This document shows, in pieces, positions 3,991 through 51,390 of a stretch of DNA of 64,000 bases; within the stretch, counting starts at the first letter, position 1; the number at the start of each line of letters is the position of its first letter. A program made the translations under genes and the position numbers. Source of the stretch: Microbacterium sp. A20 (GTDB lineage: Bacteria; Actinomycetota; Actinomycetes; Actinomycetales; Microbacteriaceae); contig NZ_SSDF01000090.1 in NCBI RefSeq assembly GCF_004794515.1, forward strand, positions 1-64,000. Reading direction: 5' to 3'. The notes beneath the pieces are model-generated. The model made no database searches. It saw nothing but the letters and a program-made list of their open reading frames with translations, and was not told where the DNA came from.

Positions 3991-4887
3991 ATGCCCGTCC
4001 ATCCGATCGCCTCCGTCGATCTCGGCAAATCCCGCTGCCGCATCACGATCACGGGCGACGGCGGACGGATCGAACGATCAGGCGTCGGATCACCCGGCCT
4101 CGCGGCGGCCGGCGGCGTCAGCGCAGCGCTCGGCGCGATCGTGCCGCTGCTCGACGGGTTGTCCGGTCTGGAACAGATCGGCGTCGGTGCCGCCGGGGCC
4201 TGGCTCGCGCCCGAAGCCGCCCGTGAGCTGGCCGAACGACTCGCCGTCGCGACCGGCGCCCGCATCGTCGTGGCCTCCGATGTGGTCACCGCCCATGTGG
4301 GAGCGCTCGACGGCGGGACGGGTGTGCTGCTCATCGCGGGAACCGGCGCCGCCGCGCTCGGCATCGACGACAACGGTGCACGACTCGTCGACGGCTGGGG
4401 ACCCGAACTGGGCGACCTCGGCAGCGGTTCCTGGCTCGGACGCGAGGCACTGCGTGCGGTGCTGCGCGCCGCTGACGGGCTCGCGGCGCAGACCGTCCTC
4501 ACCGACGCGATCAACGGTCCGGTCGGAGCTGTGTCGGACATCCAGGAGTGGATCGCCCGGAGTGAGCCGCTGCCGCGGCGGCTCGCGACGCTGGCCCCTC
4601 TCGTGCTCGACGCCGCGGAGGCCGGCGATCCCGTCGCCCATCAGATCGTGGCGGAAGCCGTGCGCCTGCTCACCGCCACGGCCGTCGCGGCCTCCGCACG
4701 GACGCGCGACGTGGCGCTGCACGGCGGCCTCACTGACCACGCCTGGTTCCGTGACTCCCTCGTCTCCTCCCTGCACGCTGCCGGCCGCCGGGTCGTCCCC
4801 GCCACCGGCGATGCTCTCGACGGTGCGCTGCTGCTTGCCCGCCGCACCGACCTCCCTCACGAAAGGTTCGTCCACCGTGCCGAATGA
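3991..4887 (+). CDS. BadF/BadG-type amino-sugar kinase (GlcNAc/MurNAc kinase)
   Basis: This encodes 298 residues of the ASKHA fold. The N-terminal phosphate-1 motif is SVDLGKSRCRI, the central glycine-rich motif is LLIAGTGAAALGI, and the signature GWGPELGDLGSGSWLG follows, as in N-acetylglucosamine kinases of the BadF/BadG/BcrA/BcrD family. Some members, such as clostridial MurK, phosphorylate both MurNAc and GlcNAc. Because murQ follows with an 11-base overlap, I infer that this kinase supplies MurNAc-6-phosphate from cell-wall turnover. No PTS or MurNAc transporter gene is nearby. A GAGGAGA ribosome site precedes the ATG. Confidence 0.8.
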   Translation: MPVHPIASVDLGKSRCRITITGDGGRIERSGVGSPGLAAAGGVSAALGAIVPLLDGLSGLEQIGVGAAGAWLAPEAARELAERLAVATGARIVVASDVVTAHVGALDGGTGVLLIAGTGAAALGIDDNGARLVDGWGPELGDLGSGSWLGREALRAVLRAADGLAAQTVLTDAINGPVGAVSDIQEWIARSEPLPRRLATLAPLVLDAAEAGDPVAHQIVAEAVRLLTATAVAASARTRDVALHGGLTDHAWFRDSLVSSLHAAGRRVVPATGDALDGALLLARRTDLPHERFVHRAE

Positions 4888-5809
4888 CTCGCGCCTCGCC
4901 TCCCTCCTCTCCGTGCTCGAGGGCCTCGGCACCGAGGCATCCACGACGGAGCGCGGAGATCTGGACCTGTTGGACACGGCCGAGCTCGTGCGTCGGATGA
5001 ACGCCGAGGACCGGCGGGTGCCCGAGGCCGTCGCCGAGCGCACGGACGAGATCGCCGCGGTGGTCGACGCCATCACCGAGCGATTCCGACGTGGCGGTCG
5101 ACTGATCTATATCGGTGCAGGCACAGCAGGCCGCATCGGCGTGCTGGATGCCAGCGAGTGCCCGCCCACCTTCGGCACGGATCCCTCGATGGTGGTCGGG
5201 CTGATCGCGGGCGGCGAGACCGCGATCCGCTCGGCCGTGGAGAACGCGGAGGACGATGAGGCCGCCGCAGGGGAGTCGCTGCGTGAGCTCGGACTCTCCG
5301 TCGACGACACGGTGGTCGGCATCTCGGCTTCCGGACGCACTCCGTACGTGGTCGGCGGCCTGAACTACGCCCGTAGCGTCGGCGCGTTCACGGCGGCGAT
5401 CGCCTCGAACGCGCACTCCGAGATCGGGGCGGTGGCCGACGTCGCCATCGAGGTCGTGACCGGGCCCGAGTTCATCTCCGGGTCCACGCGACTCAAGGCC
5501 GGCACCGCGCAGAAGCTCGTCGTGAACATGCTCACGACCCTGTCGATGATCAAGCTCGGCAAGACCTACCGCGGGGTGATGGTGGATCTGCTCGCCACGA
5601 ACGAGAAGCTCCACGCGCGCTCCATCCGCACCGTGTCGCAGCTCGCGGGTGTCGACATCGACGTCGCGGCCGCCGCGCTGCAGGGGGCCGACGGCTCGGT
5701 CAAGCGGGCCCTGCTGATGCTGGCGGTCGACGCCACCCCGCAGGAGGCGGCAGCTGCGCTCGACGAGGCCGACGGCGTGCTGCGCGACGCGATCGCCGCT
5801 CTCGCCTGA
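4877..5809 (+). CDS. murQ: N-acetylmuramic acid 6-phosphate etherase
   Basis: This 310-residue enzyme cleaves the lactyl ether of MurNAc-6-phosphate to GlcNAc-6-phosphate and D-lactate. Diagnostic blocks are visible: GAGTAGRIGVLDASECPPTF with the catalytic glutamate, SASGRTPYV of the SIS fold, and ISGSTRLKAGTAQKLVVN. The family signature KTYRGVMVDL and TNEKLHARS follow. The GTG at 4877, eleven bases inside the end of the kinase gene, gives the usual family length. A much longer frame upstream is only the shadow of the kinase gene. Together with the kinase and the RpiR regulator it forms a peptidoglycan-recycling unit. Confidence 0.95.
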   Translation: MPNDSRLASLLSVLEGLGTEASTTERGDLDLLDTAELVRRMNAEDRRVPEAVAERTDEIAAVVDAITERFRRGGRLIYIGAGTAGRIGVLDASECPPTFGTDPSMVVGLIAGGETAIRSAVENAEDDEAAAGESLRELGLSVDDTVVGISASGRTPYVVGGLNYARSVGAFTAAIASNAHSEIGAVADVAIEVVTGPEFISGSTRLKAGTAQKLVVNMLTTLSMIKLGKTYRGVMVDLLATNEKLHARSIRTVSQLAGVDIDVAAAALQGADGSVKRALLMLAVDATPQEAAAALDEADGVLRDAIAALA

Positions 5810-5896
5810 CTCGGTGCGATCGCGGCCGTCGTGGTGTGCCTCGGCACGTGAGCGAGCCCCGCTGACGCGCTGCCGGTGGTCCGATAGCGTGACGGG

Positions 5897-6562
5897 ATGC
5901 CCCTCGCTCTGATCACCGGCGCCGCCCGCGCGAACAGCATCGCCGCCGGCATCGTCCCCCGCTTGCGCGCAGCCGGCTGGACCGTCGTGACGAGCGACCT
6001 CCGCGACGCCGACCATCCCGCCGACCTGTCCACCCCGGAAGGGCCGGAAGCTCTGGTCGCCGAGGTCGTGGCCGCGCACGGCCCGATCTCCGCGCTCATC
6101 CTCAGCCATGCGCACGACGTGCAATCCGGCATCCTCGACACCACGGCCGAGAGCTTCGACCTGCACGTCGCCGTGAACGCACGGGCCAGCCTGCTGCTGA
6201 TCGCGGCCTTCGCGCGGCAGGTGAGCGAGGACGGGGGAGTGATCCTGGCCCTCACCAGCGATCACGTGACGGGAAACCTCCCGTACGGCGCATCGAAGGG
6301 CGCTCTCGACCGTCTGGTTATCTCGGCAGCCCGCGAGCTGGGTCCGCGCGGCATCTCGGCGAACGTGCTGAATCCCGGACCCATCGACACCGGGTGGATG
6401 GACGACGAGACGCGCACGAGCCTGGGCGGCATGACGCCGCTCGGACGGCTCGGACAGCCCGCCGACGTAGCCGCGGTGGTGGAGTTCCTCGTGTCGGACG
6501 AGGGCCGCTGGATCTCGGGACAGCTGCTGAAATCGGACGGGGCGTTCTCGGCGCAGTACTGA
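5897..6562 (+). CDS. SDR-family oxidoreductase (FabG/ketoreductase-like)
   Basis: This 221-residue short-chain dehydrogenase is slightly shorter than typical members. The N-terminal nucleotide-binding segment ITGAARANSIA is a variant of TGxxxGxG. The catalytic triad is Ser121, Tyr130 and Lys134 (YGASK). The usual NNAG is replaced by LSHAHD. The C-terminal LGRLGQPADVAAVVEFL block matches FabG-like enzymes. Substrate is unknown. TAGCGT at 5885-5890 lies six bases before the ATG, suggesting leaderless transcription. Confidence 0.85.
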   Translation: MPLALITGAARANSIAAGIVPRLRAAGWTVVTSDLRDADHPADLSTPEGPEALVAEVVAAHGPISALILSHAHDVQSGILDTTAESFDLHVAVNARASLLLIAAFARQVSEDGGVILALTSDHVTGNLPYGASKGALDRLVISAARELGPRGISANVLNPGPIDTGWMDDETRTSLGGMTPLGRLGQPADVAAVVEFLVSDEGRWISGQLLKSDGAFSAQY

Positions 6563-45886: not shown

Positions 45887-47116
45887 TCAGACGCGCGCGC
45901 GTCGCAGCCGCAGCATCCGGTATCCCACGCCGAGCACGACCACCCCTGCTCCGATCGCGGAGGCCAGCACGGGGAGGGTTGCGACCAGCACGAGGCACCC
46001 GAGCGCGCCGACGACCTGCAGCGCGCGGGGGTAGCGGCGTGCCGATCCCCGCTGCCGGAAGGCCGACGCGTTGGCGATGAGGTAGTACAGCAGCACTCCG
46101 AACGACGAGAAGCCGATCGCGCCGCGAAGGTCGGCGAGCAGCACGATGACGATCACGATGACGGCGATCGCGATCTCGGCGCGCTGCGGCACGTGATGGC
46201 GCTCATCGATCTTCGCAAGGAACCTCGGGAGGTCGCCCTCCCTGGCCATCGCCAGCGTCGTGCGCCCGATGCCGGTCAGAAGTGCCAGCAGCGCACCCAG
46301 TGAGGCGGCGGCCGCCGCCACGCGGATGACCGGGGCCCACGCCGAGGCGTCGACCGCATCGAGCAGGTCGACCAGCGGCGCCGTCGATCCGATCGCATCG
46401 GCGCCGAGGACCAGGACGACCGCGACGCAGACCAGGGTGTAGACGACGACGGCTCCGCCGAGGGCGAGGATGATTGCGCGCGGGATGGTCTTCGCCGGGT
46501 CGACCACCTCCTCGCCCATGGTCGCGATGCGCGCATATCCGGCGAATGCGAAGAACAGCAGCCCGGCCCCCTGCAGCACGCCGTAGACGGTGGCGTCGGG
46601 CAGCGGGCCGGGAGTGGCTGAGGGTGCGGCGCCGAGCCCGAATCCGACCGCGACGGCGATCCCGAGCAGCGAGCAGACGACCAGGATGCGCGTGAGCAGC
46701 GCGGTCCGGGTCACGCCGAAGCAGTTCACGACCGCCAGTGCCGCGACGGCGATGACGGCAACGGGCACCTGCCATCCTTCGGGTGCGGCGTAGGCGGCGA
46801 AGGTCATCGCCATGGCGGCGCAGCTCGCGATCTTGCCGATCACGAAGCTCCAGCCGGCGACGAATCCCCACCACGGGCCGATCTCGGCGCGGGCGTACGC
46901 ATACGTGCCACCCGCGACGGGATGCACCGCGGCGAGCTGCGCCGATGCGGTCGCGTTGCAGTAGGCGACGACGGCGGCGATCGCGAGTGCGATGAGGATG
47001 CCGCTGCCGGCGGCCCCGATCGCCGGAGCCCACACGGCGAACACACCGGCGCCGATCATGGATCCGAGGCCGATGGCGACGGCGTCTCCGAGCGTCAGTC
47101 GGCGAGCGAGGGGCAT
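45887..47116 (-). CDS. APC-family amino acid permease
   Basis: This is a 409-residue, about twelve-helix transporter. The N-terminal DAVAIGLGSMIGAGVFAVWAPA is the unwound helix-1 motif of APC carriers. AGYARIATMGEEVVDPAKTIPRA in the middle matches the family. The substrate is an amino acid or amine, not identifiable by eye. ATG 47116 is chosen because the conserved part begins there; the frame continues 75 bases upstream without ribosome site. The stop is three bases from the convergent AraC stop. Confidence 0.87.
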   Translation of the reverse strand: MPLARRLTLGDAVAIGLGSMIGAGVFAVWAPAIGAAGSGILIALAIAAVVAYCNATASAQLAAVHPVAGGTYAYARAEIGPWWGFVAGWSFVIGKIASCAAMAMTFAAYAAPEGWQVPVAVIAVAALAVVNCFGVTRTALLTRILVVCSLLGIAVAVGFGLGAAPSATPGPLPDATVYGVLQGAGLLFFAFAGYARIATMGEEVVDPAKTIPRAIILALGGAVVVYTLVCVAVVLVLGADAIGSTAPLVDLLDAVDASAWAPVIRVAAAAASLGALLALLTGIGRTTLAMAREGDLPRFLAKIDERHHVPQRAEIAIAVIVIVIVLLADLRGAIGFSSFGVLLYYLIANASAFRQRGSARRYPRALQVVGALGCLVLVATLPVLASAIGAGVVVLGVGYRMLRLRRARV

Positions 47117-47176
47117 CCGTCCATGGTGACAGTCCGCGGTGAACGGCGGGTGACGGACGCACCGCGGCCGGTCGCT

Positions 47177-47214
47177 TATGCTGGCTTCCACGTCCTCCCT
47201 CGGGCGGGGAAGCC
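47177..47214 (+). promoter_or_regulatory. Promoter and leader hairpin of the ESX-like/hydrolase locus
   Basis: TATGCT at 47177-47182 is a good -10 candidate. It is followed directly by a leader hairpin GGCTTCC (47183-47189) with GGAAGCC (47208-47214). The leader then runs to the GGGGGG ribosome site of the gene at 47257. No clear -35 is seen. The upstream APC gene is divergent. Confidence 0.4.
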
Positions 47215-47256
47215 ATGGGGGAAGGTGATTTTGGATGGATACCGGGGGGTGTCTTC

Positions 47257-47547
47257 ATGTCGGAAGTACAGGTGTTCTATGACGAATTGCGGGCGACGGC
47301 TTTCGATCTCGCCGACGCTGTGTTCGTCTTGCAGGCGGACGCTTCGAACCTGGCGGGTGATACCGGCGTCGACGCACCGCTCGGCCGCTATTCGCTGAAG
47401 TCTGCGTTCGACAGGCAAGTAGACGCACTCCGTGAGGCGACGCTTGCACATCAAGACGCGAGTGAGGCCCTGAGGACGACTCTTATGAACATCACCGACC
47501 GGTACTCCGACCTCGACGTCGAGCTCACCGGTCAGGAACAGCCATGA
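47257..47547 (+). CDS. ESX/WXG100-like small helical protein
   Basis: This encodes 96 residues, predicted all-helical with two long amphipathic helices (residues about 3-30 and 45-80). It has no signal peptide and no cysteine. Size and layout resemble WXG100/ESAT-6-like proteins, but the WxG turn itself is absent. Its start follows a G-rich ribosome site, and its stop overlaps the 552-residue hydrolase gene by four bases. I infer that it is a chaperone-like partner or co-secreted helper of that protein. No T7SS ATPase (EccC) is in the window. Confidence 0.65.
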   Translation: MSEVQVFYDELRATAFDLADAVFVLQADASNLAGDTGVDAPLGRYSLKSAFDRQVDALREATLAHQDASEALRTTLMNITDRYSDLDVELTGQEQP

Positions 47548-49202
47548 GTCTTGGTTCGCCGAACCGTGGATACCCGCTCGAGAAGATCGCGGGCGATGTG
47601 GGCACGATGTCTCGGTGGGTCGATCAGTTCGAGGTCGTCGCCGAGCACCTCAGCGCCCTTCGCGGGGCGGCGGCGCGGACGACGGGGTGTGCCGGCGTGG
47701 GAAAGGCCGTCTCCGGCGCCCGCGAGGACGCTGCGGCGATCCTGTCGGTGATCGGCCCGGACGTCGCGCTCGCTCAGACGCTCGCCGAGGCCCTGACGGC
47801 GTATGCGAAGGCGCACGACGCGCACGCCCCGAAGGCGAACGCGCTGATCGAGGAGATCGAGAATGCGCACGCCCAGCATGAAACGCTGGGAAGGGCCGCT
47901 GACAGTGCCGGGCGCGGTGCGGTGGCCGCGTCGAGGCTCGACGACCCCGCGGCCCTGGAAAAGGCGGAAGATGAGGCGACGGAGCAGATCGGAGCACGCG
48001 ATCGAGCCGAGGAGGAGTTGAACGAGCTCTGGGTCGAGTACGAACGACACTTCGGGGCCTGGGAAGAGGCGTACGACGCTGCCGTGCGGGCACTGGTCCC
48101 GTCAGAGAGCGTGCCGGTCACCCTCGAGGCGAGGGACTTCCTCGACGCGCTCCTCTCCGCCGACACGCCGGAGGAGGTGCTGCGCCTGTGGCTGTCCCGG
48201 CCGGAACTGCAGGACGAGGTGATCAACGCGCATTCGGAGATCGTGGGCGCGATGGACGGGATTCCCGCGCTCGTCCGCGTGGCCGCCAACCGCCTCAACG
48301 CGCCCGGCTGGATCGCGGAGGCCGAGGCGGATCTCGCCGTCGAAGGGATCTCGGACGAGCGCGCGGCTTTCCTGCGCAGCGAGATCGCCTATCTGAAACA
48401 GGTGATGAGCGATGATGCTCCCGTACAGCTCTACCTCTACGATCGCGATTCCTCGCGGATCGTCGAGATGATCGGAACACCCTCGCCCGAGACGGAGAAG
48501 GTGATCACGTACGTGCCGGGAACCTTCACGAGTCTTAGGGATTTCTACCGGGGTGGCGCGCAGCAGATCGCTGGATACCTCGCTGGCCAGGTGCCGGGCA
48601 CCGTCGCGTTCGTCTATAAGGATGGACCATTCCCGGGGGAGAACACCGACGCCGGCGGCATCGACATGTTCCGCATCAGCGAGGCGAACGATGCGGACCG
48701 CGCGCTCGCGGCAGGGCGGCAGCTTGCGCGGTTCGAGGCGGGGATGCGTGCGGATCCGCTCCTGGTGGCGGCGGAGCAGGATGCTCTCGGACACAGCTGG
48801 GGGCTGTCGAACGTCACGAGCTCCGAGGTCGCTGGGGCAGACTACGACAAGGTGATCTCGCTCTCCGGGGCCGGGATGCCCGAAGCGTGGAAACCTGGGC
48901 AGGACACGACGTACACCGACCTCTCCTACAACGACATCCTGCAATCCGGGCAGGGACTTGGGATCGTGTGGGACGGGAACAATCCACGTGAACACCCGGC
49001 TTTCGAGCACGGCGAATACTACGAAGGGCCGCATGATGACGAACTGGCAGAGTCGGCAGCTGTGCCATCCAGCGGATATCCATCGGTGTATGTGCCGCTC
49101 GATGACATCGGGGTGCTGATGGACAATCACAACCTGATCGCGACGAACAGTGACGCCAATGATGAGGCCTTGAAGTATCTGAAGAAGCTGGTGGCCAGAT
49201 GA
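47544..49202 (+). CDS. Large protein: N-terminal helical region + DUF1023-like alpha/beta hydrolase
   Basis: This encodes 552 residues. Residues 1 to about 200 are charged, coiled-coil-like helices resembling ESX/LXG-type secretion regions, followed by an acidic helical linker. From about residue 290 an alpha/beta-hydrolase fold of the DUF1023 type begins, with nucleophile elbow GHSWG (Ser418) and LSGAGMPEAW. A C-terminal YVPLDDIGVLMDNHN may supply the catalytic histidine. There is no classical signal peptide. The last bases overlap a lipoprotein gene (ATGA). I infer an exported enzyme or toxin partnered by that lipoprotein; the substrate is unknown. The C-terminal coding is visibly less GC-rich than its surroundings. 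Confidence 0.75.
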   Translation: MSLGSPNRGYPLEKIAGDVGTMSRWVDQFEVVAEHLSALRGAAARTTGCAGVGKAVSGAREDAAAILSVIGPDVALAQTLAEALTAYAKAHDAHAPKANALIEEIENAHAQHETLGRAADSAGRGAVAASRLDDPAALEKAEDEATEQIGARDRAEEELNELWVEYERHFGAWEEAYDAAVRALVPSESVPVTLEARDFLDALLSADTPEEVLRLWLSRPELQDEVINAHSEIVGAMDGIPALVRVAANRLNAPGWIAEAEADLAVEGISDERAAFLRSEIAYLKQVMSDDAPVQLYLYDRDSSRIVEMIGTPSPETEKVITYVPGTFTSLRDFYRGGAQQIAGYLAGQVPGTVAFVYKDGPFPGENTDAGGIDMFRISEANDADRALAAGRQLARFEAGMRADPLLVAAEQDALGHSWGLSNVTSSEVAGADYDKVISLSGAGMPEAWKPGQDTTYTDLSYNDILQSGQGLGIVWDGNNPREHPAFEHGEYYEGPHDDELAESAAVPSSGYPSVYVPLDDIGVLMDNHNLIATNSDANDEALKYLKKLVAR

Positions 49203-49711
49203 GAGGCAGCGGGTGGCGGGCTGTTGCCGTCGCGTTGCTTTGCGCGACGGTGCTCTCAGGTTGTGCGCCCGCCGCTCAAACGCCTGCTGACGATGGGAGT
49301 CCCGTGACGTTGGAAGAAGCGAAATCTGAGGCGCAGGCGATGGAGCTTGAGATTGCGGCGTTGATTCCTGCGGATGTTGTGGCAAATTTCGTCCAGAAGC
49401 CAGAAGGAACGCTGTTCGCTTGCGACGATGCGCAACACCGGTGGAAAGGTCTCACAACGGTTGCTCTGGTGCCAGGCACGGACGTCAAAATGGTCGTCAA
49501 GGGCGTTGAGGCTCAAATGGCAGACGACGACCGCTTCGAGATGAGGAGCTGGGTCGACCCTGCCGGCGAGTACACCGTGCAGCTGACGTCCCCCGAGACC
49601 GCTGCGAACTTCATCTTCGGTGAAGGTATTGAAGAGGGGACTATCGACATCGATTCAGGTTCCAAGTGCTTCACGCTGCCGGAAGGCGTGTATCCCGGAG
49701 GGACGTTCTGA
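49199..49711 (+). CDS. Putative lipoprotein, cassette member 1
   Basis: This 170-residue protein has a lipoprotein signal (VAVALLCATVLSGC, Cys22). The mature domain is about 145 residues and carries EAKSEAQAMELEIAALIP and the ending TLPEGVYPGGTF. A close relative lies at 49872. It is translationally coupled to the hydrolase gene, and its base composition is less GC-rich than the neighbours. The family is unknown to me. Location and coupling suggest a surface-anchored immunity or accessory protein for the hydrolase; this is inference. Confidence 0.78.
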   Translation: MRGSGWRAVAVALLCATVLSGCAPAAQTPADDGSPVTLEEAKSEAQAMELEIAALIPADVVANFVQKPEGTLFACDDAQHRWKGLTTVALVPGTDVKMVVKGVEAQMADDDRFEMRSWVDPAGEYTVQLTSPETAANFIFGEGIEEGTIDIDSGSKCFTLPEGVYPGGTF

Positions 49712-49741
49712 TGTCCGTCTCACATCCATGACCTGAGATCG

Positions 49742-49875
49742 CTCCGAGTCGGCGGCCTTCTCGCGCTGTCCGGGTCGGGGATGCCGAGGCGATGTACGTG
49801 CCGCTCGATGACATCGGGATGCTGATGGATAACGACAAAGCCCTGAAGTACATGGAAGAGCTGGTGCGCGGATGA
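49742..49875 (+). pseudogene. Decayed remnant of a second hydrolase 3' end
   Basis: An ATG at 49792 opens a 27-codon frame (MYVPLDDIGMLMDN, then KALKYMEELVRG) that aligns with the end of the 552-residue hydrolase, lacking about 13 residues after MDN. Just upstream, about 49742-49790, CTGTCCGGGTCGGGGATGCC matches the LSGAGMPEAW coding of the same gene, but with deletions and a frame shift. The stop overlaps the next lipoprotein ATG (ATGA), exactly as in the intact pair. It is therefore a collapsed duplicate of the hydrolase. Confidence 0.8.
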
Positions 49876-50378
49876 GAGCGTCGTGGTGGCAGGCCATTGG
49901 CGTCGTTGCGGTGTGCTCGGCGATCTTGGGTGGATGCGCTTTCCTGGCGGAGCGACCCGGACAGGAGAGCAAAGAGACGGCAGATAAGGCAAAGGCCGAC
50001 GCGCAGGCGATGGAGTTGGAGATCGCGTCGTTGATTCCTGATGACGTCGTCGCCAGCGTCGATCAGAAGCCGGACGGAACGCTGTTCTCCTGTGACGAAG
50101 CGCGGCACCATTGGGCAGGATCTACGACCGTGGTGCTCGTCTCCGAGGCTGATGCGACTGAGGTGGTGAAGCAGTTGGAATCAGATGTGCGAGATGAAGG
50201 TCGGTTCTCCGTCGAGTCTTGGGTCGATGTCACTGACACGTACAGCGTGCAACTGACGCTGCCTGGTTCGGTGGAGAACTACATCTTCAGCGAGGGAGAG
50301 CCGCACACGATCCGCATCGCTTCGGGTTCGGAGTACTTCACGCTGCCGGAGGGCGTCTACCAGGGCGGCACGTTCTGA
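49872..50378 (+). CDS. Putative lipoprotein, cassette member 2
   Basis: This 168-residue paralogue of the protein at 49199 has signal IGVVAVCSAILGGC (Cys22), then KADAQAMELEIASLIPDDVV and the same ending TLPEGVYQGGTF. Conserved pairs such as GTLFSCDEARHHW match GTLFACDDAQHRW in the first copy, including a shared cysteine. The mature domains have diverged clearly. The partner hydrolase survives only as a remnant, so this looks like an orphan immunity-type gene that has been retained. Confidence 0.78.
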   Translation: MRASWWQAIGVVAVCSAILGGCAFLAERPGQESKETADKAKADAQAMELEIASLIPDDVVASVDQKPDGTLFSCDEARHHWAGSTTVVLVSEADATEVVKQLESDVRDEGRFSVESWVDVTDTYSVQLTLPGSVENYIFSEGEPHTIRIASGSEYFTLPEGVYQGGTF

Positions 50379-50409
50379 CGGCCGACCCGCCGGCGCCTCC
50401 ACGCCCCGG

Positions 50410-50883
50410 TCAGCCCCGGGACGACGCGGTGACCCGCTTCTTCTCCCGGATGTACACCTCGCGGCGGACCTTCGCGACCACGTCGCCCTCGCGGTCCGTG
50501 ATCACCGTCTCGAACCACTCGAGCACCTTCGCGCCGCCGCGCGCGCGCTCACGGATCTCCTCGGCCTTCTCCTTCGACACCTCGAACTCGGCCGTGAGCA
50601 CCCCGCGTCCGGGCTTGATGAACTCGATCTCGCCGCGGGTGTCCCACACCACATGGTCGCGCCCGAGCTGATGCATGACGAGCATGAAGAAGTACGGGTC
50701 GGTCATGGCCGACATCGAACCGCCGAACGCGGTCTTGACGTAGTTGCGGGTGAAGACGTTCACATGCAGCTCGACGGTGGCGTGGGTCCAGTCCTCGCTG
50801 AAGCGGCGGATGCGGATACCGCTGAAGAGGTTCGGGATCCAGAGGCTCATACCGAGGGCGAGGCGGCGGGGCGTGATGCGCAT
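50410..50883 (-). CDS. DUF4442 hotdog-fold (thioesterase-like) protein
   Basis: This 157-residue protein has the DUF4442 hotdog fold related to PaaI thioesterases. NYVKTAFGGSMSAMTDPYFFMLV is the central hotdog helix, and GEIEFIKPGRGVLTAEF follows. The catalytic details of the family are unproven. CACACT six bases before the ATG suggests leaderless transcription. It is divergent from the GntR-type operon. Confidence 0.85.
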   Translation of the reverse strand: MRITPRRLALGMSLWIPNLFSGIRIRRFSEDWTHATVELHVNVFTRNYVKTAFGGSMSAMTDPYFFMLVMHQLGRDHVVWDTRGEIEFIKPGRGVLTAEFEVSKEKAEEIRERARGGAKVLEWFETVITDREGDVVAKVRREVYIREKKRVTASSRG

Positions 50884-50939
50884 CCCGCCAGTGTGGGGGA
50901 GACAGGGCCGGGGGACGAAGACGTCTGGAGGGTAGCTAC

Positions 50940-50966
50940 AGTTGTTCTAGTTCGTATAGAATAACT
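50940..50966. promoter_or_regulatory. Inverted-repeat operator/promoter of the GntR operon
   Basis: AGTTGTTCTA (50940-50949) and TAGAATAACT (50957-50966) form a near-perfect inverted repeat (one mismatch) with a seven-base spacer, in an AT-rich island. A TATAGA-type -10 lies inside it (TATAGAAT). It stands 26 bases before the GntR start, so autorepression by that YtrA-type protein is likely. The repeat is seen; the binding is inferred. Confidence 0.7.
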
Positions 50967-50991
50967 AGCGATACCGGAGAAGGAGAGTCGG

Positions 50992-51390
50992 ATGCTGATC
51001 CGCGTCGATCCCGACAGCCCCCGCGCGCTGTACGACCAGGTGGCGGCGTCCGTGCGCTCGGACATCCTCGCCGGAGTGCTCGCGCCCGGAGACCGCCTTC
51101 CCGCGGCGCGAGATGTCGCCGAGGCGCTGGAGATCAACCAGCACACCGTTCTGCACGCCTATCAAAGGCTGCGCGACGAAGGTCTCGTCGATCTGCGTCG
51201 AGGCAGGGGGGCCGTCATCGCGACCTCGGCTGCGCCGCTCGCCGAGCTCGCGCACGACATCGATGAGCTGGTGCGTCGGGCCGCAGCTCTCGGGGTGTCT
51301 GCCGACACGCTCGCCGGCATCGTCCAGGCGCATCGCCAAGCCCGCACCGTCATGAACCCGATCGAGAACCCCGAGGAGGATTCGCCATGA
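50992..51390 (+). CDS. GntR-family regulator, YtrA type
   Basis: This 132-residue protein has an N-terminal winged helix (SPRALYDQVAASVRSDILAG, LEINQHTVLHAYQRLRDEGL) and a short C-terminal dimerisation helix. This matches the YtrA subfamily, which usually controls small membrane-transporter operons. GGAGAAGGAGAG precedes the ATG. The next gene overlaps by four bases (ATGA), so all three genes form an operon behind the 50940-50966 palindrome. Confidence 0.88.
   Translation: MLIRVDPDSPRALYDQVAASVRSDILAGVLAPGDRLPAARDVAEALEINQHTVLHAYQRLRDEGLVDLRRGRGAVIATSAAPLAELAHDIDELVRRAAALGVSADTLAGIVQAHRQARTVMNPIENPEEDSP

Follow-up and report, generated by a model that had tools for sequence, protein, structure and literature searches.

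A probable type VII secretion-linked hydrolase effector with putative surface immunity lipoproteins in Microbacterium sp. A20

What is encoded by a run of tightly overlapping genes for which sequence databases offer no name? The question is raised by positions 47257 to 50378 of a 64,000-nucleotide stretch of Microbacterium sp. A20 (contig NZ_SSDF01000090.1, positions 1 to 64,000, forward strand), which as a whole is referred to below as the window. A gene for a small ESX-like protein, a gene for a 552-residue protein, a lipoprotein gene, the remnant of a second hydrolase gene and a second lipoprotein gene follow one another here, all on the plus strand and joined at three points by ATGA overlaps. 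These elements and junctions, first listed in a sequence-only reading of this DNA, are all present. None of the four encoded proteins has a significant match in Pfam, NCBIfam or PADLOC. We consider it probable that the array is an antibacterial effector–immunity locus of a type VII secretion system (T7SS), in which an exported hydrolase toxin would be accompanied by surface immunity lipoproteins; we infer secretion, toxicity, enzyme activity and binding alike. An effector with a surface-anchored immunity protein had been proposed before, and comparison with relatives supports the proposal well through strict gene pairing, extra and orphan lipoprotein copies, the T7SS context and displaced modules.

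The pairing of hydrolase and lipoprotein genes deserves attention first. The putative effector (47544..49202, +) is composed of a helical N-terminal domain (residues ~1-200) and a serine-hydrolase domain (~205-552). Its gene overlaps, by an ATGA at 49199..49202 (+), that of lipoprotein 1 (49199..49711, +; 170 aa, lipobox LSGC, Cys75 and Cys157), the proposed cognate immunity protein. In what follows, G numbers denote genomes and L numbers fetched regions of relatives; G000 is the genome of the window itself and L002 is Microbacterium sp. MYb54, a sister strain. Within the genus 295 genomes were searched: 96 hold relatives of the effector, and 46 hold the lipoprotein. Ten of these 46 gave no effector match when up to four candidates were scored in each genome, although hydrolase fragments are present in G198 and G259 (L101, L102), which are among the ten. 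Part of all genus hits was taken further, giving 60 neighbourhoods, 40 of them around the catalytic domain or the lipoprotein and 20 around the N-terminal domain. Clade A comprises those hydrolases in the 40 loci, L002 and the window to which an iterated catalytic profile assigns more than 350 bits. Hydrolases regularly found without a lipoprotein neighbour had been named as the observation that would contradict an effector–immunity pair. Once the neighbourhoods were collected and copies counted, as the same reading had advised, every clade-A hydrolase (33/33) proved to overlap an in-frame related lipoprotein gene by 4 nt (NTGA), and up to four lipoproteins were present per locus. Below 350 bits, L093 (308 bits) also has a lipoprotein directly behind its hydrolase, and split or fragmentary hydrolases occur in L066, L096, L097 and L100.

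The arrangement extends beyond the genus. At E 1e-5 the lipoprotein profile matches 43 of 349 Microbacteriaceae genomes, distributed over 19 of 85 genera. Twenty lipoprotein-seeded regions were taken from other genera of the family, mainly higher-scoring ones; a hydrolase or a piece of one lies directly upstream in 18 of them (in L179 by a weak 15-bit match), with the 4-nt overlap in 16 of these 18, and L191 and L193 have no upstream hydrolase. When genomes were sampled across the class, 23 of 394 matched the catalytic profile at E 1e-10, and only two Microbacterium and one other Microbacteriaceae genome exceed 300 bits. Among eight more distant relatives (L161-L168), lipoproteins follow the hydrolase in three (L161, L162 and L163), in tandem in the last two; the filtered listing holds no lipoprotein directly downstream in the remaining five.

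Extra lipoprotein copies also support the proposal. Fragments of a hydrolase 3' end stand before additional lipoprotein genes in the window and in L063, L065 (two), L094 and L102, as well as in L178 from another genus, and broken or fragmentary hydrolases are found in L100 and L101; a profile of the tip matches none of 355 control regions. Over 839 bp, an orphan tip with its lipoprotein in G117 (L063) shares 90.1% identity with the terminal part of the intact effector and the neighbouring lipoprotein in G238 (L064), whereas the intact hydrolase end and adjacent lipoprotein of G117 itself share 72% with that orphan module. This identity between genomes shows that a hydrolase tip and its lipoprotein can be displaced together as one module, a behaviour known from Rhs toxins. 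The orphan tip of G117 is joined to a truncated lipoprotein half: one open reading frame (ORF; L063, 7914-8444) runs from the beginning of a lipoprotein into the final ~110 residues of a hydrolase. A tandem repeat of the entire module, at 89%, is present in G695 (L178). Lipoproteins with no intact hydrolase in front of them are window lipoprotein 2 and those of L099, L191 and L193. The repeating unit is the hydrolase 3' tip with its lipoprotein and not the whole cassette. Displacement is evident by sequence in G117 and G238, and the window, compared with MYb54, is consistent with it.

In the window itself the decayed 3' end of a second hydrolase occupies 49761..49875 (+), and its TGA stop (49873-49875) still lies within the ATGA at the start of lipoprotein 2 (49872..50378, +; 168 aa, lipobox LGGC). 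That this stretch is a collapsed hydrolase end, as had been proposed, is confirmed by blastn matches to the intact tail and to L100: 49790-49838 is 88% identical to 49084-49132 of the intact hydrolase (E 2.5e-11), 49840-49878 is 77% identical to 49167-49205 (E 0.15 alone, but the order is kept), and 49761-49791 is 91% identical to the hydrolase of another genome (L100, E 8e-5). Relative to the hydrolase 3' end the remnant carries internal deletions; over ~50 nt it is 88% like the tail of the window and 80% like that of MYb54. Lipoproteins 1 and 2 are 55% identical to each other. Lipoprotein 2 matches the single lipoprotein of MYb54 at 88% over 416 nt and groups with it in the tree with support of 1.00. 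As the orthologue of the only copy in MYb54, the second lipoprotein of the window would thus be no less a displaced immunity gene than a duplicated one. MYb54 lacks ~670 nt, which equals the spacing of the two lipoprotein starts in the window. The former proposal of a cassette duplicated and then deprived of its second effector stands as regards a second lipoprotein behind a hydrolase remnant, but needs refining as regards the unit, which is tip plus lipoprotein, and the history, as lipoprotein 2 is orthologous to that of MYb54. Against MYb54, and without a significance test, dN/dS is estimated at 0.27-0.35 in lipoprotein 2 and at 0.07-0.09 across residues 70-500 of the hydrolase. Tyr replaces the second conserved Cys in lipoprotein 2, and the MYb54 orthologue retains the Cys.

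What kind of enzyme would the effector be? It is modular, since residues 1-255 and ~205-552 retrieve different sets of proteins. The C-terminal part contains a GHSWG nucleophile elbow (residues 416-420; 48789..48803, +), in which S418 is invariant in 26 aligned relatives, as are D464 and H529 across the same number of aligned catalytic domains; these three residues presumably act as the catalytic triad. The domain had been called DUF1023-like, and this holds as a profile-profile link to the family but not as a direct label: the window protein has no PF06259 match at E up to 1, and none was found in 26 effector relatives at E up to 0.01. Compared with the paralogues encoded at T7SS loci, the domain aligns with an hhalign probability of 99.2% over 317 columns, with the Ser aligned, and two of these paralogues (L103 and that of G000) match PF06259 above cut-off. 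By this profile-profile comparison the catalytic domain is a remote homologue of PF06259 (Abhydrolase_8/DUF1023) domains. The motif is GHSWG in the window hydrolase versus HSYG in the T7SS-locus paralogues. PDB sequence searches returned no solved relative of the catalytic domain. An AlphaFold model of the effector, built from two sequences, has a mean pLDDT of 43, with only residues ~91-170 above 70, and its N-terminal domain is helical. Two variants were seen elsewhere: in L195-L197, from other genera, a GHSAG hydrolase is followed by a related lipoprotein, and a 1381-aa open frame containing the catalytic domain (L120, 6613-10758) has a lipoprotein right behind it.

Several features affiliate the locus with type VII secretion. 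The ESX-like partner gene (47257..47547, +) encodes a small helical protein of 96 aa, overlaps the effector gene by an ATGA at 47544..47547 (+), and is of the same kind as genes in the T7SS-locus triplets of relatives. The partner ends in YSDLD, a motif of the Y/FxxxD/E type that is described as a T7SS signal (PMC10730906). Of 53 hydrolase genes, 36 are preceded by a small gene that overlaps them by 4 nt, and 29 of these 36 partners carry Y/FxxxD/E in their last 32 residues against 5.1 expected by shuffling, the sequences being related and not independent. The genome of the window encodes one FHA-fused EssC/EccC-like ATPase of 1499 aa on contig C13 (TIGR03928 E 2e-163, below the curated cut-off). 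Besides this EssC-type protein and an FtsK-like one on C91, a third FtsK/SpoIIIE-type ATPase was noticed on C50 (3068-4045; open frame 935 aa). Matches to the 1499-aa protein at E 1e-80 or better occur in 183 of 295 genus genomes, though some probably represent other EccC types, and all eight genomes that combine the N-terminal domain type of the window with this catalytic domain have such a match. Relatives, G117 for example, carry a triplet ~8 kb after this ATPase: an ESX partner, a hydrolase with the N-terminal domain of the window type, and a lipoprotein. A WXG100 gene (PF06013 above cut-off) is located between ATPase and triplet. The lipoprotein of such triplets (~230 aa) belongs to another sequence family; it was found in 14 of the 15 loci displayed, with two copies in L110 and L113. 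In G000 the triplet is at the end of contig C39.

Effectors of relatives with other N-terminal domains point the same way. Two of 26 match T7SS_signal (PF21725; best E 1.3e-25), L075 has a WXG100 match below cut-off, and WXG100 genes above cut-off adjoin the effectors of L091 and L093. TIGR03925 (EccC) is above cut-off in 20 of 25 genomes tested, mostly those whose effectors have other N-terminal domains. A profile of the 26 effectors, only seven of which have the N-terminal domain type of the window, matches Staphylococcus aureus EsxA (2vrz) over its first 95 positions at E 7.2e-5, and also EsxB, with generic coiled coils appearing from E 0.005. The window-type domain by itself has no Pfam match. 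For the window's own locus the T7SS link is one of context, indicated by the paralogue at the T7SS locus, by the motif of the partner and by the ATPase.

Considering these data together, we propose the following scheme. Homology and gene context suggest that the ESX-like partner and the helical N-terminal domain form an export signal for an EssC/EccC-type ATPase; the EssC-type machine would then export both proteins jointly. With S418, D464 and H529 as its active residues, the C-terminal alpha/beta-hydrolase is most likely an esterase or phospholipase for membrane lipids and would act outside the cytoplasm on an envelope lipid of neighbouring cells. On the outer face of the producer's membrane the lipoprotein would bind and block the hydrolase, so that sister cells are spared. 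Recombination within the hydrolase gene may then import a new tip together with its lipoprotein and leave the old tip and lipoprotein behind; the old tip would decay, and its lipoprotein may be retained as an extra immunity gene, older or foreign.

A number of observations weigh against this effector–immunity reading. A profile of the window-type N-terminal domain (14 sequences) finds nothing among solved structures below E 0.16, and the EsxA match thus belongs to relatives with other N-terminal domains. The catalytic domain is poorly modelled (pLDDT ~22-39), its fold resting on profile similarity to PF06259 proteins and on the motif. The divergent hydrolase of L098 (271 bits; 4792-6477, hydrophobic N-terminus) has neither partner nor lipoprotein in the region listings. 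The tip profile, which misses the remnant in the window, finds remnants before only 4 of 27 further lipoprotein copies. Deletions disrupt both the partner gene and the N-terminal part of the effector in MYb54 (L002, 5882-6221), although its catalytic domain and lipoprotein remain open. Hydrolase and adjacent lipoprotein co-diverge strongly over 43 pairs (Mantel r 0.83; 0 of 2000 permutations), which favours the reading, but common ancestry confounds this result. A concentration of the co-variation in the hydrolase tip was also considered and rejected: r is 0.81 for the core and 0.76 for the tip, with partial r of 0.50 and 0.30, respectively.

Some of the same data could be explained by a housekeeping envelope esterase, exported by the T7SS and served by a dedicated surface chaperone, tether or regulator lipoprotein, in which case the tandem copies would be ordinary paralogues. 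The T7SS-locus paralogue does resemble a stable core gene with its other-family lipoprotein almost always behind it (14 of 15 displayed loci, two copies in L110 and L113), and the low dN/dS of the hydrolase and lipoprotein 2 would suit such a role. The patchy distribution of the lipoprotein (46/295 genus genomes) does not, and hydrolase-less lipoproteins, diverged arrays and displaced modules of tip and lipoprotein fit immunity genes but not a chaperone; we hold this explanation to be unlikely. Less plausible again is a lipoprotein that the hydrolase would need for its export or maturation beyond the membrane, a foldase in the manner of lipase chaperones and not an inhibitor: strict gene coupling and co-divergence are equally expected of an obligate folding partner, but a foldase has no obvious use where an intact hydrolase is missing (window lipoprotein 2, L099, L191, L193), and the dN/dS of 0.27-0.35 for lipoprotein 2 also speaks against it. 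That the array is a decaying genomic island of no present function, with junctions as left-overs, would suit the damaged partner and N-terminus of MYb54 and the decayed remnant, but is highly improbable given the dN/dS values for hydrolase residues 70-500 (0.07-0.09) and lipoprotein 2 (0.27-0.35), the intact catalytic residues and the conserved NTGA junctions.

If the lipoproteins are immunity proteins, to which family do they belong? No known family could be assigned to the window type, which has no significant match in Pfam or NCBIfam searches. Among 30 lipoproteins, neither DUF576 nor PF16708 (LppA) matches were detected at E up to 0.1, PF16708 is likewise missing from G000, and a PDB sequence search gave no solved relative. 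The AlphaFold model of lipoprotein 1 (pLDDT 72) has no Foldseek match below E 0.001. By structure comparison (VIA), LppA (2v7s) is listed first (Z 9.1, rmsd 4.9, 121 residues), the next rows having Z of 7.8-7.9 and some of them being plainly unrelated. Aligned with signal peptides included, the family reaches hhalign probabilities of 92% against LppA-type and 95% against T7SS-locus lipoproteins; with mature parts only these fall to 21% and 25%, the real scores being above 60 of 60 column shuffles. A kinship with LppA-type and T7SS-locus lipoproteins is no more than suggested by these models and alignments.

Gene order adds to this comparison. PF16708 was found in 17 of 325 genomes of the class at E 0.001 (13 above cut-off), and 14 regions were fetched from 11 of these 17. 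A hydrolase lies directly upstream of the LppA-type lipoprotein in 12 of the 14, and all 12 hydrolases match PF06259 above cut-off. The two genes overlap by the 4-nt NTGA in nine regions (L211, L212, L213, L214, L218, L219, L222, L223 and L224) and by ~10 nt in L216 and L217; no hydrolase adjoins the LppA-type gene in L215, and in L220 (1-2070, -) the order is LppA-type lipoprotein, EspC-family partner and hydrolase. The N-terminal parts of these PF06259 hydrolases include Hydro_N_hd in three and EspA_EspE in two. Three LppA-type genes stand in a row behind the hydrolase in L211, and L212 has two in a row as well as a second hydrolase with one.

Across Actinomycetes, DUF1023-type serine hydrolases with ESX/Esp-type N-terminal domains might together constitute a single, large class of antibacterial toxins of the T7SS, with the surface lipoproteins encoded behind them, those of the LppA family (PF16708) among them, as their immunity proteins; we regard the chances for and against this generalisation as evenly balanced. 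In M. tuberculosis, lppA and lppB probably lie next to a DUF1023 gene. High diversity, recombination and positively selected sites have been described for this gene pair (PMC4770551). Were the generalisation true, such recombination and selection would reflect an arms race of immunity genes rather than variation of host antigens.

The nearest described parallel is TslA/TlaA1/TlaA2/TilA of the S. aureus T7SSb, in which a phospholipase A toxin of reverse domain order is accompanied by two small partners and by an immunity lipoprotein whose copy number varies (PMC10730906). Shared with it are a serine-hydrolase toxin, small helical partners, an immunity lipoprotein gene at the toxin-domain end of the effector gene, variable extra lipoproteins and a polymorphic toxin domain. 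In contrast to TslA, where the catalytic domain comes first, the helical domain leads here; there is a single partner gene, overlapping that of the effector, and not a pair; the lipoproteins lack DUF576; and the locus belongs to an actinobacterium and encodes a DUF1023-like catalytic domain. With neither reverse domain order nor DUF576, membership of TslA/TilA was rejected. In our best reading the locus is analogous to that system and should work like it.

Strings of non-identical immunity genes are also described for TspA/TsaI and EsaD/EsaG of S. aureus and TelC/TipC of streptococci, TipC having a probable lipoprotein signal, and a tsaI cluster contains a fragment homologous to the 3' part of tspA (PMC9484751). 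That fragment parallels the hydrolase tips seen here. By their published descriptions these three systems belong to toxin and immunity families different from those of the window, and in window-type loci the stop codons of several tips still overlap the start of the next lipoprotein. Orphan toxin-tip/immunity modules are known from contact-dependent inhibition (CDI) systems. Partial copies of Rhs toxins offer a published parallel for remnant tips (PMC9484751). The displaced C-terminal tip with its immunity gene downstream of an intact locus (G117 versus G238) is Rhs- or CDI-like, but the locus is neither Rhs nor a two-partner system and has a T7SS-type context. LppA (2v7s) is the best structural match of the lipoprotein model and its family takes the same position behind DUF1023 hydrolases, yet a direct profile match is missing. 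A PADLOC defence family was also considered for the locus and dropped, as there were no matches.

Titles and abstract openings searched, a scope that leaves most subscription journals outside, contained no description of DUF1023 hydrolases as T7SS toxins or of LppA-type proteins as immunity factors. The statement that no described system has this make-up fits the searchable literature, with the qualification that TslA/TilA (PMC10730906) is a close functional parallel. Mycobacterial toxins such as CpnT are exceptions to an otherwise Bacillota-centred picture. The T7SS toxin–immunity systems in the papers cited here are from Bacillota (PMC10730906, PMC9484751). The locus points to an actinobacterial class of hydrolase toxins and immunity lipoproteins with forward domain order, in which neither the toxin domain nor the immunity family has a functional name. 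It suggests testable functions for DUF1023 hydrolases and LppA-type lipoproteins, and the displacement of tip-plus-lipoprotein units is a possible route of locus diversification.

Finally, recent exchange had been read from low GC content and the diverged lipoprotein pair. GC per kb is indeed 0.595-0.675 across 47001-51000 versus ~0.70 around, and the divergence of the pair is real, but low GC alone is not evidence of exchange. The alignment with MYb54 collapses just upstream of the partner gene (~47200); beyond this point the window has a permease-like ORF (45887-47191, -) and MYb54 a LacI-like regulator ORF, both named by eye.

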